From NCBI RefSeq assembly GCF_021134715.1, contig NC_060017.1:6572001-6636000 (forward strand): DNA of 64,000 nt, written 5' to 3'. The notes under the pieces are model-generated. The model saw nothing but the letters and a program-made list of their open reading frames with translations, searched no databases and had not been told where the DNA came from. This DNA comes from Daphnia pulex. Taxonomy: Eukaryota > Arthropoda > Branchiopoda > Diplostraca > Daphniidae. The position numbers and the translations under genes are program-made. Positions 57,687-64,000 of the stretch are shown in pieces. How positions within the stretch are numbered: the stretch's first letter is position 1; the number at the start of each line of letters is the position of its first letter.

Positions 57687-57694
57687 TATATAAA
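57687..57694 (+). promoter_or_regulatory. TATA box of glutathione peroxidase gene 1
   Basis: TATATAAA lies 39 bases before the first ATG (57726). A second TATA-like TATAAAG is at 57709-57715. Start sites about 30 bases below the first would fall just before the first ATG; those below the second would fall after it. Confidence 0.5.
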
Positions 57695-57725
57695 GGTCGC
57701 CCAATGCGTATAAAGCTTTCGGACC

Positions 57726-58738
57726 ATGACGAGAAAAGCTCTATTTCTAACTGGGTGGCGCGTAATAGCCTATAGAACCGCCATGGTAAGTTTTAGTTTA
57801 ATCATCATTGTTTCAGATCAAGTGATTTGCATAGTATTTTTTGTTAGACATCTCCTTCAGAAGGAAGTGGCAATGCCAACTACAAAGAAGCTCAATCCAT
57901 CTATGATTTCACTGCTAAAGATATAGATGGTAATCAAGTGTCACTTGATGACAAATGCAGGTATAATCTGTTAATTTCATTTTTTGATGTACATATGTAT
58001 TTAACAATTAATTTTGATACATTAGGGGTCATGTGTGTGTCATTGTCAATGTTGCGTCAAACTGAGGTACAACCCCTGTCAACTACACACAGCTAGTTGC
58101 GCTGCACGAAAAGTATGGCGAATCCAAGGTATAATCATATGAGATTTTACATAAGATTGTACCGTATATTACTACTTGGCACTTTTCTCTTGGCAGGGTC
58201 TGAAGATCCTTGGTTTCCCATGCAATCAGGTAATTATAAATCTATTGCGCGTATTTTACAGATTATTTGCTAAAATCACACGTTACTTTATTCCTCTTAA
58301 CTTGCAGTTTGCATCCCAGGAACCGGGAACTCATTCTGAAATCAAGGAATTTGCAGCCAGCTACAATGTGAAGTTTGACATGTTTGCCAAGATTGACGTC
58401 AACGGCGATAACGCACATCCGCTGTGGAAATATTTAAAACTGAAGCAAGGAGGCACCCTTTTTGAGTAATAAGAATCAATTTCAGACAAATTTATTATTT
58501 GTTTGCTTATATCATTCACATTTAATTGGTATCAAATTATTCTTATAGTGCTATCAAATGGAATTTCACCAAATTCATTGTGGACAAGAATGGTCAACCT
58601 GTCGCTCGTCACGCTACAACAACCAATCCTTTCGTAATGACAATAATCGCATAAAGATATCATGAAGCATTTCTGGTAATGATGAATTTTTATTTTTAGG
58701 ATATGGAGAAGGATTTGTTGAAATACCTAAACCAGTAG
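57726..58738 (+). CDS. Phospholipid-hydroperoxide-type glutathione peroxidase, selenocysteine form, copy 1
   Basis: Reduces lipid hydroperoxides with thiols. Seven exons: 57726-57785, 57848-57960, 58026-58128, 58197-58229, 58308-58465, 58549-58633, 58700-58738 (TAG); all phases fit and give 196 residues. In exon 3 the frame contains TGA at 58063-58065 in the context [16 protein letters not shown], exactly the catalytic position, so it is read as selenocysteine. The other catalytic residues are present: Gln in FPCNQ, Trp and Asn in KWNFTKF. A SECIS-like hairpin lies downstream at 58880-58945. Exon 1 encodes a 20-residue basic/hydrophobic leader ending in a second Met at the splice site, so long (organellar) and short (cytosolic) forms are possible, as in vertebrate GPX4. 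One extra codon relative to copy 2 occurs before the intron-2 donor (LDDKCR versus LDKYR). Confidence 0.88.
58063..58065 (+). other. Predicted selenocysteine codon (TGA), peroxidase copy 1
   Basis: In-frame TGA between AAC and GGT at the family's catalytic Sec/Cys position; homologous exon frame continues on both sides and across both splice junctions. Confidence 0.88.
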
Positions 58739-58879
58739 GTGTCCTCTGATATCTCCTGATATTATAATGACAGATTTTACTGTTGTCTTCGTTTCTTAAT
58801 GGGAAATCTGGATGTGGCGTTTTTCGACTTTAGAAAAGGCTTGCGTTTATAACTTTAAACGAATTATTTCTGATTGAAC

Positions 58880-58945
58880 GGAATAAAAATGACAGGCTCT
58901 CCGCAAAACCTCATCGGTATGGACGAGTCTTGATGCTCCTATTCC
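58880..58945 (+). promoter_or_regulatory. SECIS element, peroxidase copy 1
   Basis: In the 3' UTR, 142 bases after the stop. Outer helix GGAAT (58880-58884) with ATTCC (58941-58945); quartet ATGA (58889-58892) with TGAT (58931-58934); helix AGGCTC with GAGTCT; apical AAAA at 58905-58908. This is the eukaryotic SECIS layout. Confidence 0.8.
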
Positions 58946-59002
58946 AAAAATATTTAGAAAGAAATTCGAAAGAAATTGTATACTCTTCGCCTATTTCAAT
59001 TT

Positions 59003-59008
59003 AATAAA
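59003..59008 (+). terminator. Polyadenylation signal AATAAA, peroxidase copy 1
   Basis: AATAAA 58 bases beyond the SECIS element, the first after the stop apart from the GGAATAAAA inside the hairpin. Confidence 0.4.
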
Positions 59009-59825
59009 ATTTTACCGACTATTCAGTTAAAAAAAAGTTTTTCACTGTTTTTGGTTTCTTTCTTGCGGTCGTTTGATTCCCATTATACCTCAGAGACGAA
59101 ATTAAGGTGAATGAAAATATTGCTCATGCAAGATTGTGATTCTCTTACCAGACTCGCGCGTCTCTCTTACAAATAACGACACATTTGCCAAAAGTAGGCA
59201 ATTTGGTAGACTATAAATCGCTAAATCTCAAGCACTGTCGGATTTTTAAAATTCATAAAAGGTTATAGGCCTACACGGCTACACCATCTAGCAGTCAAGT
59301 TTGAACTTTTTCAACAAATGTGTAGTGTAGTTTTGCGGTGACTTTTAGTGACCAAAACGATAAGTCGATAACACATATAAATTATAAAAGGCTTCAATTC
59401 CTTAAAAACATGCCTCTCGAGTTTCGTACTCATTGCAATTAAATGAAATAAATAAAATTCTATCGCATCCATGTTAAGATGCTCTTTAGGCTAACCTTAC
59501 AAAAGACCCAAATGGAGAAAAGAAAGTAATTTGCATAACTCGTGTCCGTCTGCCGAAGGCTACATTGTTTCGGCATATCATGGCAATTGGTATGTAGGCG
59601 ACGTTGGGAAATGCTTTATCGATTTTACTATATGTAGTGGAGAAAGCTTGTTAGGACCAGTATGAGTAGTACGGTTGTAGGGTGTAGTTGATAAAAAAAT
59701 CCTCGAGTCATCGTCTGACGTATTTGACTTTCTTATCCAGTTGTTTTATTATACTCGGTACAGGCATTCGTACCATAACCGGGGGAGCTCTACTGCTAGC
59801 TGGTTGCGCAAAATACAGCACCGTC
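59009..59825. other. Spacer between peroxidase copies 1 and 2
   Basis: No gene recognised. The stretch 59768-59825 keeps an open frame similar to the copy 1 leader (IRTITGGALLLAGCAKYSTV) just before the copy 2 ATG, but lacks its own in-frame ATG. A pyrimidine-rich AG site at about 59740 could join an unseen upstream exon. Confidence 0.35.
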
Positions 59826-60772
59826 ATGGTAAGACATTGAATTCAATCTGTAAGTGGTTTAGATGTGATTTTGACACAGACAAATTTATTTTTAGGCATC
59901 TCCTTCAGTAGGAAGTGGCAATGCCAACTACAAAGAAGCTCAATCCATCTATGATTTTACAGCTTTAGATATAGATGGTAACCAAGTGTCACTTGACAAA
60001 TACAGGTAATTTGTTAATATCACATTATTGGGATGTATAAAATTTCATGAAATAATCTTGTTTTCTTAAACAGGGGTAATGTATGTGTCATTGTCAATGT
60101 TGCGTCTAAGTGAGGTAAAACAAAAGTCAACTACACACAGTTAGTTGCGCTGCATGAAAAGTATGGTGATTCCAAGGTAACAATGTCAGATTCTAGTACA
60201 TCACATAGATTTTTTACTATTGCTTTTCAACACTTTTGTCTTGGCAGGGTCTGAAGATTCTTGGTTTCCCTTGCAATCAGGTAATTATAAATTTATTATT
60301 CCTATTTAATAAAAGCTGGGTTAACACATTCTTTTATTTCTTTCACATTGAACAGTTTGGATCCCAAGAACCAGGAACTAATTCTGAAATCAAGGACTTT
60401 GCAGCCAGCTACAATGTGAAGTTTGACATGTTTGCCAAGATCGACGTCAACGGCGATAACGCACATCCGCTGTGGAAATATTTAAAAAAGAAGCAAGGAG
60501 GCACCCTTACAGAGTAAGAATTTGATTTTAAGTAATGTTGGTTTCGTTTTTGTCTTATTTAGCCTTATAATTGTTTTTAGTGGCATTAAGTGGAATTTCA
60601 CCAAGTTCATTGTAGACAAAAATGGCCAGCCTGCCGCTCGTTACGCCCCAACCACAGATCCTTTCGTAATAACTGAAATCACATAAGATATCATTATGAA
60701 GCATTTCCGGTAATGATAAATTTTTAATTTTAGGATATGGAGAAGGATTTGTTGAAATACCTAAACCAGTAG
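59826..60772 (+). CDS. Phospholipid-hydroperoxide-type glutathione peroxidase, selenocysteine form, copy 2
   Basis: Seven coding exons with the same phases as copy 1: 59826-59828 (ATG only, GTAAG donor follows), 59896-60005, 60074-60176, 60248-60280, 60356-60513, 60581-60665, 60734-60772 (TAG); 176 residues. TGA at 60111-60113 sits in [16 protein letters not shown], the catalytic position. Gln (FPCNQ), Trp and Asn (KWNFTKF) of the catalytic tetrad are present. A SECIS-like hairpin follows at 60915-60980. Exon 5 is almost identical to that of copy 1 ([20 protein letters not shown] and onward), so the two arose by recent duplication or have exchanged sequence. The start is the ATG at the exon 1 splice site; a leader-like open stretch precedes it without ATG, so a longer form would need an upstream exon or non-AUG start. 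Peroxidase acting in cytosol is the default reading. Confidence 0.87.
60111..60113 (+). other. Predicted selenocysteine codon (TGA), peroxidase copy 2
   Basis: In-frame TGA between AAG and GGT at the catalytic position, with conserved coding sequence on both sides. Confidence 0.88.
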
Positions 60773-60914
60773 ATGGCTCCTAATATCTCCTGATATGTAA
60801 TGACAGATTTCCCTGCTTCTTTGTTAATTATGGGAAATCTGGATGTGTGAGTGGCTTATTGGATTTTCGTAAAAGGTTTGTTTAGTTTCAAACGAATTAT
60901 ATTTCTGATTGAAC

Positions 60915-60980
60915 GGAATAAAAATGACAGACTCTCCGCAAAACCTCATCGGTATGGAGGAGTCTAGATGCTCCTATTCC
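60915..60980 (+). promoter_or_regulatory. SECIS element, peroxidase copy 2
   Basis: Closely similar to the copy 1 element: GGAAT/ATTCC outer helix, ATGA at 60924-60927 with AGAT (60966-60969) opposite, AGACTC/GAGTCT helix and an AAAA apical tract. A paired change in the helix (GGCTC to GACTC) keeps pairing, which supports function. Confidence 0.8.
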
Positions 60981-61648: not shown

Positions 61649-62769
61649 ATGGTAATATTTCTCTAAGTAACAGTTTTATAGGAATTTTAAAATGTTTTTT
61701 TTTTTTCAAGGCTGCAGCTGAAGGTATTGGCAACGCCGATTACAAATTAGCAACATCAATTTACGATTTTACAGTGACAGATATAGATGGAAATCAAGTG
61801 TCACTCGAGAAGTATAGGTATTTTCAAACTCTGCTGCTTGTGTATATTCGCAATGAATGTCATATCAATTAATAATGTAATTACTTTATAGAAATCATGT
61901 CTGCATTATCGTAAATGTAGCTTCAAAATGCGGTTACACTCACGGTAATTTTCTAGAATTAACTTATCGTGACTTGACGATGATTCAGCTTAATAATTAT
62001 TTTGTCTGATGCTAATTCAAAGTAAACTACACACAACTGGTGGACTTACAGGAAAGATTCGAGTCTAAAGTAAGTTTATAAATTTTTTTATTGTAAGTGT
62101 CATTTATCATGAAGTATATTTATATTGTATAGTAAAAAAAAACTGTTGTTTTACATACAATATAAAATATATGCAGGACAGGTGTGTGTAATTGACTCAG
62201 TTCTGAGTTCCAACAACACTTTACCTGACATCATTTGCATGCTCAGTTATTAACATATTTTCATGCAGGTGAATTTACCATGTCATCCTAAAAGTGTGTA
62301 TCCTTTCTTTATTTCAGGGTTTAAAAATTTTGGCCTTTCCTTGTAACCAGTTCATGTCACAAGAACCTGGCACTAGTGAAGAAATCAAATGTTTCATATC
62401 TGGGTACAAAGGAGATGGGAAATTTGACGTATTTTCCAAAGTTAACGTCAACGGCGAGGACGCTCATCCTCTTTGGAAATATCTCAAAGAAAAACAGGGC
62501 GGTTTGCTGATCGAGTAAGAAATTAACATCAGTGTAATATGGTCTTTTAATTATTAATTTTAAACTTATCTTTGTAGCGCAATTAAATGGAACTTCACCA
62601 AGGTTTGTTAAAATTTGTAGCGTCAAACGTAAAAGCTTGCGTATAACACGATTTTTCTTCCCGAATTTAGTTTGTAATCAACAAACAAGGACAGCCGGTG
62701 GAACGATGTGCAGCTAACGTCAATCCTTTTGACATGGAGAAATCGATTGTGAAATGCTTGAATGAATAA
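61649..62769 (+). CDS. Glutathione peroxidase, cysteine form, copy 3
   Basis: Seven exons: 61649-61651 (ATG only), 61711-61817, 61892-61944, 62023-62069, 62318-62514, 62578-62602, 62671-62769 (TAA); 176 residues, the same length as copy 2. At the catalytic position a TGC Cys codon (61929-61931) replaces TGA, in [16 protein letters not shown]. Gln (FPCNQF), Trp and Asn (KWNFTKF) are kept. The gene differs in structure: an extra intron splits the exon after GYTH, the intron after CNQ is absent, and the last introns are displaced. No SECIS-like hairpin is visible after the stop. Cys forms are usual in insects and generally prefer thioredoxin as reductant; that preference is inference here. It is more diverged from copies 1 and 2 than they are from each other, so it is the older branch. 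Confidence 0.88.
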
Positions 62770-63174
62770 ATGGTGAAGCACGTTCACGTTTCTGCATTCA
62801 GAAACATCACTTATTCGCATTTCCACTGGGCTATTTTGTAACCAGGCGTGTTCAGATTATTAAAAAAACAGAATTAATTAAAATTCGAATGAGCAGTGAA
62901 ATAGGAGCTTTGTATTGCCGTGATGTGTCTTCAAGTTGGGTGCTAAGAATTCGGATGACTTCAGAGCTTCAGAATAAATCATTGAAATATCGTTAAAAAA
63001 AAGTCGTTTCGTGGGATTTGAACAGTTACACCAGACAGCACATACTGAATATTTAGGATTGAAAACGAAGACTTGAATAGTTTAAATAATTATGTGGGAG
63101 ATTCAATCACTAAGATCGTTGAGGAAACACACCTGTCTAATGCCTATGAATATTTACATTGACTGGAACTGTTA
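62770..63174. other. Convergent 3' region between peroxidase copy 3 and MOB3
   Basis: AATAAA overlaps the copy 3 stop (62765-62770) and recurs near 62973. No other content recognised. Confidence 0.4.
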
Positions 63175-63965
63175 TCATCGATGATTGGAACGAGAAGGAG
63201 AGCTGGTGTAATCGATAGGAGGGTCCTTGCAAATATGGGCAGTCATTTCCTGCAACGGTTCCAATTCTCGATCCCCAATTAAATCAAATTGGCGAATAAA
63301 ATAATAGAAATGCTTGTAGCATGTGTTAACGTGAGCTTCAGCACCGATCGCTACCAAACGGTCAAAATGGTGAATATAGACGTGGACGAATACGCGGAAC
63401 AGACGAGTCAAAATTTTCTTGCACTGGCTGACAAACGTCTTAGGAAATGGGATATCTGGAAAAAATGGACAGAGTTGTAGCTATGTTGGGGAATTACTAA
63501 GAATAGCCAAACTTACCAGTACTAACAGGGAAAAGAGACTCATTGTTTATTTGACCTTCAGCCCACTCCATCAGCAATGAGATATATTGAGGAGCTGGTA
63601 ATTTTGTGGGCTTCTTGTACTTATTGCCATCAGCCCATAGATATTCAAATTTAGGTCCTCCAGACATGGTTGGGCATGATGCCTCTGAACAATAATCAGA
63701 TATAGTTCCATAGATAAGGTTTATGCGATTGAAGAAGTCCACCACTATGTCAAGAAGAGAAAATAGTGTTAATTAACTTATATTGGGTTCAACATTTTAA
63801 TGTGATTTTTTTACCATGAACTGCAATCCAATCATTCAGATCTTCACCAGGAGGTAGTAAGACTGCAGCTCGAAGATTTATTCCAGAACTTAATGAAGCC
63901 TGTGCTTGTGTGTGTAAGGAATAGCGCAATGTTCCAGGTTCAAACTTTTTTTTTGGTTTGAATGT
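63175..63965 (-). CDS. MOB3-type MOB kinase activator, 3' part
   Basis: Three exons on the minus strand: 63965-63815, 63745-63517 and 63455-63175 (TGA). The gene is cut by the right edge, so the first exon or exons are missing. It encodes [52 protein letters not shown], then [14 protein letters not shown] and [16 protein letters not shown]. These are the MOB fold with its zinc ligands (Cys pair in YCSEASC, His pair in FVHVYIH). The [21 protein letters not shown] form and the ELEPLQEMT end point to MOB3 rather than MOB1, MOB2 or MOB4. MOB proteins are adaptors of NDR/LATS or MST kinases; MOB3 proteins bind MST1-type kinases. A Ser/Pro-rich tail ([12 protein letters not shown]) extends past the usual end. 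Phases at both junctions fit (G|TG and G|AT). Confidence 0.9.
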
Positions 63966-64000
63966 CTGAAAAGAGAACCAGAATGTTATGAAACCGGTAA

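Follow-up and report, generated by a model that had tools for sequence, protein, structure and literature searches.

Two neighbouring GPX4-type peroxidase genes of Daphnia pulex, each with an in-frame TGA and its own SECIS-like element, very probably encode selenoproteins

Among arthropods, the centipede is described in the available passages of a comparative survey as having a selenocysteine-containing glutathione peroxidase (Sec-GPx), and holometabolous insects as having Cys-only forms (PMC4244043). In the part of their paper accessible here, Chapple and Guigo did not find selenoprotein loss outside Endopterygota (PMC2500217), and excerpts of later work extend the losses to further groups of insects and to two mites (PMC5330540). 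For crustaceans, the corresponding passages describe GPx3 isoforms with type 2 SECIS elements in the crayfish Cherax and a Sec-GPx in shrimp (PMC8872551); shrimp are further credited with many selenoprotein genes on the strength of unpublished data cited in the excerpt (PMC2375036). Daphnia pulex itself is listed with 16 selenoproteins and two intron-bearing tRNA-Sec genes, the introns measuring 25 and 16 nt (PMC5330540, in part). A first-pass annotation of the locus described here had called Sec peroxidases rare in arthropods, a statement that these excerpts contradict, as the scarcity they describe is that of insects and two mites, with Sec-GPx in centipede, crayfish and shrimp and 16 selenoproteins in D. 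pulex (PMC4244043, PMC5330540, PMC8872551, PMC2375036). Among the matches listed in a literature search with partial journal coverage and with supplements outside its scope, no title concerned the tandem locus.

The locus lies in a 64-kb stretch of the D. pulex assembly, hereafter the window, in which we rebuilt two neighbouring peroxidase genes (Table 1). In both genes all introns begin with GT and end with AG, the phases match and the frame is kept, and each model contains exactly one in-frame TGA. With this codon read as Sec, the gene 1 product comprises 196 residues (177 counted from the second Met) and the gene 2 product 176. The first-pass annotation had proposed a single TGA (58063 and 60111) at the catalytic position of each gene, with correct splicing phases around it, and both points are borne out by the rebuilt models and by the alignment with human GPX4. 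Its description of the locus as a tandem pair holds for the two Sec-GPx genes, but the cluster as a whole is a triplet, with a third copy (gene 3) that has Cys at the catalytic position.

Table 1. Coordinates of the peroxidase cluster in the window, and of the tRNA-Sec genes elsewhere in the assembly
Feature	Position	Strand	Details
TATA-box-like TATATAAAGG	57687..57696	+	39 nt before gene 1 ATG; putative function, from sequence
Gene 1	57726-58738	+	7 exons, ATG 57726 to TAG 58738, rebuilt exon by exon
Gene 1 exons	57726-57785, 57848-57960, 58026-58128, 58197-58229, 58308-58465, 58549-58633, 58700-58738	+	
Gene 1 exon 1, 20 residues	57726..57785	+	basic, without acidic residues; possible mitochondrial leader
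Gene 1 exons 2-7, GPX4-type peroxidase, TAG end	57848..58738	+	PF00255, 143.3 bits
Gene 1 in-frame TGA (putative Sec) in NVASN-U-GTTP	58063..58065	+	catalytic column of human GPX4
Gene 1 SECIS, form-2-like	58880..58945	+	RF00031 30.5 bits, E 0.0045; ATGA 58889-58892, GA 58932-58933; unpaired AAAA, extra small hairpin
Gene 2	59826-60772	+	7 exons, ATG 59826 to TAG 60772, rebuilt exon by exon
Gene 2 exons	59826-59828, 59896-60005, 60074-60176, 60248-60280, 60356-60513, 60581-60665, 60734-60772	+	
Gene 2 ATG	59826..59828	+	counterpart of second ATG of gene 1; leaders compared by eye
Gene 2 exons 2-7, GPX4-type peroxidase, TAG end	59896..60772	+	PF00255, 154.4 bits
Gene 2 in-frame TGA (putative Sec) in NVASK-U-GKTK	60111..60113	+	catalytic column of human GPX4
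Gene 2 SECIS, form-2-like	60915..60980	+	RF00031 29.5 bits, E 0.0086; ATGA 60924-60927, GA 60967-60968
Gene 3, tandem GPX4-type paralogue	61649..62769	+	catalytic Cys (TGC); modelled with 7 exons, the first (a single codon) by analogy
tRNA-Sec gene	C5:6873655-6873765		anticodon-loop intron, 25 nt
tRNA-Sec gene	C7:11706125-11706226		anticodon-loop intron, 16 nt

All three products, with Sec written as Cys for scoring, match PF00255 (GSHPx) above its cut-off of 27 (142.7 bits for gene 3; Table 1 for genes 1 and 2). In the alignment with human GPX4 they keep the Sec/Cys, Gln, Trp and Asn columns, which we take to be the four residues defining the GPx catalytic site. Genes 1 and 2 share with the human enzyme (PDB 2obi) the Sec position, its Gln-Trp-Asn partners and about 63% identity over 161 columns (101/161 and 102/161, respectively). 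They differ from GPX4/PHGPx in that gene 1 carries an inserted residue and, at the second position past Sec, Thr instead of Lys, gene 2 is devoid of the first ATG, and the locus is a tandem array that includes a Cys copy. Comparison with the PDB was made for gene 2, with closeness read from bit scores rather than from a tree; designed GPX4 variants aside, its best matches are GPX4 chains (natural chains about 219-230 bits; 2v1m, named plainly 'glutathione peroxidase', 207), followed by GPx5 (2p5q, 177), GPx7 (127), GPx8 (102), GPx2 (101.5), GPx1 (100) and GPx3 (86 bits). Both Sec genes stay below the cut-offs of the two matching NCBIfam GPx models. By domain and tetrad, genes 1-3 can be classed as GPX4-type, and gene 2 is by bit score nearer to GPX4 than either to GPx1/2/3 or to GPx7/8. 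The Sec-GPx of Cherax and shrimp, with type 2 SECIS elements in the Cherax isoforms, are by contrast GPx1/2/3-like in the passages available (PMC8872551); the GPx3-like genes of the present assembly lie on C10. When the gene 2 protein was searched against the assembly, 11 exons matched at E<=0.001, of which one lay on C7 and the others in the cluster; no further GPX4-type place emerged beyond the cluster and this C7 gene.

The coding sequence continues under constraint on both sides of the TGA. Between genes 1 and 2, dS is 0.284 and dN 0.060, giving an ω of 0.21 (175 codons; Fisher p 3e-7), and across the 125 codons that follow the TGA, in the rest of exon 3 and in exons 4-7, ω is 0.17 (Fisher p 7e-7). 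Purifying selection thus acts before and after the TGA, and so low an ω beyond the codon would not be expected of an ordinary stop.

Starting 141 nt (gene 1) and 142 nt (gene 2) past the stop codon, the 3′ UTRs contain full-length matches to SECIS_1 (RF00031; E values for 5.5 kb against 4227 families), both scoring under the Rfam gathering score of 35 bits. In a search of the 133-Mb assembly, in which scoring covered 133 of the 2653 first-look candidates, these two elements were the only RF00031 matches at E<=10. Each has a computed fold of lower helix, internal loop, upper helix, unpaired AAAA and extra small hairpin, a layout that we take to be form 2. A SECIS-like hairpin in each 3′ UTR had been claimed in the first-pass annotation, with the absence of a computed fold named as one observation that would tell against it; motif and form-2-like fold are present in both genes. 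Fold energies were mildly better than those of shuffled sequences and by themselves lend weak support, with z-scores of -1.24 for gene 1 (27 of 200 shuffles at least as stable) and -1.96 for gene 2 (11 of 200). A purpose-written SECIS scanner recovers both elements, yet the scanner alone is no proof, because it gives six other matches across the window (64 kb, both strands, <= -10 kcal/mol). Between the copies, 63 of the 66 positions of the element are identical, compared with 70-76% of the aligned sites of introns 1-5; beyond the poly(A) region the figure is 64%. If the TGA codons were ordinary stops, yielding truncated proteins or pseudogenes, and the hairpins were due to chance, SECIS scores under the Rfam cut-off and weak fold z-scores would come as no surprise; however, the ω of 0.17 after the TGA and a hairpin core that both copies retain amid diverging introns and flanks leave this reading with hardly any probability. 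We reject a chance TGA or hairpin on the constraint after the TGA, the conservation of the element and the assembly-wide SECIS search (133 of 2653 candidates scored).

The Sec machinery is present in the genome, as judged by a search that covered tRNA-Sec, SepSecS, eEFSec and selD. The two tRNA-Sec genes reach covariance scores of 63.1 and 61.2 bits (cut-off 47). Their insertions follow the anticodon, and apart from these the genes differ at two T-arm positions, which pair with each other. Their intron lengths are those given in the available passages on the D. pulex selenoproteome (PMC5330540). At both loci detected by the covariance model, ARAGORN reports no tRNA; our guess is that the introns are the reason. 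SepSecS and domain 4 of eEFSec are present, and a selD-type gene is found as exon pieces, each under the model cut-off (best 81.9 versus 125). Its upstream exon encodes KGUGCK with an in-frame TGA, presumably as in SPS2; over 1.1 kb past the gene, the scanner gave no SECIS match. A Cys GPx is encoded on the opposite strand about 1 kb away from this SPS2-like gene (C7:5602500-5609800).

The gene models, the GPX4 homology across the TGA, the SECIS matches confined to these two sites in the assembly search, the selection past the TGA and the Sec machinery together uphold the central claim of a tandem pair of Sec-GPx genes, both equipped with a SECIS of their own. We are confident that genes 1 and 2 are genuine duplicated GPX4/PHGPx-type selenoprotein genes (synonymous distance about 0.28), with the TGA most probably read as Sec via tRNA-Sec/eEFSec and SECIS, and with products that should reduce hydroperoxides. 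In the proposed mechanism, the form-2-like SECIS of each 3′ UTR would call in tRNA-Sec and eEFSec, these would decode the TGA as selenocysteine, and the enzymes should act on hydroperoxides through their Sec-Gln-Trp-Asn active site; transcription, Sec insertion, enzyme activity and cellular location are inferred. What characterizes a eukaryotic selenoprotein gene, namely a TGA at a known Sec position with constraint beyond it, a 3′ UTR SECIS and the decoding machinery, is in place for both, with SECIS scores under the Rfam gathering score and selD pieces under the model cut-off. Genes 1 and 2 are typical selenoprotein genes of a kind known in crustaceans, and the locus leaves knowledge of selenoproteins and their spread in arthropods unchanged; they probably belong to the 16 selenoproteins counted in D. 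pulex (PMC5330540, the gene list lying outside the available passages). As the UGA is most likely selenocysteine, an annotation stopping at these codons would miss two antioxidant genes in an animal that serves as a standard in ecotoxicology.

The two copies share their orientation, and a 2048-nt spacing is common to four of eight repeat families, as might result from an assembly artefact in which two alleles were laid in tandem. Such an artefact is scarcely credible in view of the 70-76% identity of introns 1-5 at aligned sites, the 64% past the 3′ ends and the dS of 0.28, a divergence that presumably exceeds that of alleles; on the divergence of the introns we reject an allelic duplicate. 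Intron 6 and exon 7 are 88% and 100% identical between the copies (58634-58738 and 60666-60772) and more alike than introns 1-5, which suggests a gene conversion tract at the 3′ end that may account for part of the 3′ similarity.

Judged against gene 3 and human GPX4, the 20 differences between genes 1 and 2 comprise 8 derived in gene 1, 8 derived in gene 2 and 4 that are ambiguous. The gene 1 enzyme may be altered, because a Cys in place of Tyr38, a Thr in place of Lys54 at the second residue past Sec and the inserted residue are among its derived changes. At 7 of the 8 sites derived in gene 1, these three among them, human GPX4 agrees with gene 2, a pattern expected if gene 2 were the working selenoprotein gene and gene 1 a decaying duplicate. 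Gene 2, however, has as many derived sites, gene 1 shares the human GPX4 residue at 5 of these 8, and with 4 of 20 sites ambiguous the contrast is small. Moreover, gene 1 retains an intact frame, intact splice sites, the tetrad and its SECIS, and the pairwise ω is 0.21. Decay of gene 1 is therefore improbable in our estimate, and we retain the reading of two genuine selenoprotein genes.

Exon 1 of gene 1, a possible mitochondrial leader by its composition, follows an in-frame TAA five codons upstream and ends in a second ATG as its last codon (57783-57785). A leader combined with an internal ATG is presumably also the arrangement in mammalian GPX4. In the corresponding stretch of gene 2 (59764-59828), ATA at 59775-59777 takes the place of the first ATG of gene 1. 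An acceptor-like stretch ending in TACAG at 59763 could mark an upstream exon of gene 2.

Gene 3 is identical to gene 1 at 120/174 and to gene 2 at 116/174 positions. Its intron layout departs from theirs: exon 3 is divided by an intron, exons 4 and 5 form a single exon, an intron follows WNFTK and the last intron of genes 1 and 2 is absent. AATAAA occurs downstream, at 62973. The assembly-wide RF00031 search found no SECIS for gene 3, and the scanner, applied to 62770-64000 for a relic element, gave one unconvincing match more than 1 kb past the stop. A further Cys is present in EEIKCF; it lies near what we take to be the site of the resolving Cys in thioredoxin-dependent GPx, and gene 3 may for this reason use thioredoxin.

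A broader scenario, which we put forward tentatively and hold to be rather unlikely as a whole, is that gene 3 descends from a Sec ancestor through a Sec-to-Cys change and SECIS loss, and that the Sec copies divide the GPX4 compartments between them, gene 1 keeping the leader start (ATG) and gene 2 having lost it (ATA), instead of two starts in one gene. The direction from Sec to Cys is one we infer without a tree. If the scenario is true, the Sec/Sec/Cys tandem triplet amounts to a natural experiment. The triplet, and the ATA of gene 2 at the leader start of gene 1, are mildly notable, and the Cys copy alongside lets Sec and Cys peroxidases be compared within one locus.

Elsewhere in the assembly, two tandem apparent Sec GPx3-like genes, a label that we take from their motif VATYUGFT, lie on the minus strand at C10:13485000-13490500, and a SECIS-like element follows each of them. 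On the same strand, at C10:14913000-14918500, there is a broken GPx3-like copy whose frame contains a TAA downstream of the TGA. RF00031 at E<=5 found no SECIS in loci L014-L017, which include both of these C10 loci. As the scanner sees SECIS-like elements at C10 loci that Rfam leaves empty, absence of an RF00031 match is weak evidence. At the locus of the pair, the scanner gives 2 matches versus at most 1 in any of 5 shuffles, and at that of the broken copy 5 matches versus 0 in 5 shuffles. The SECIS-like element past the broken copy is nearly identical to one at the locus of the pair.
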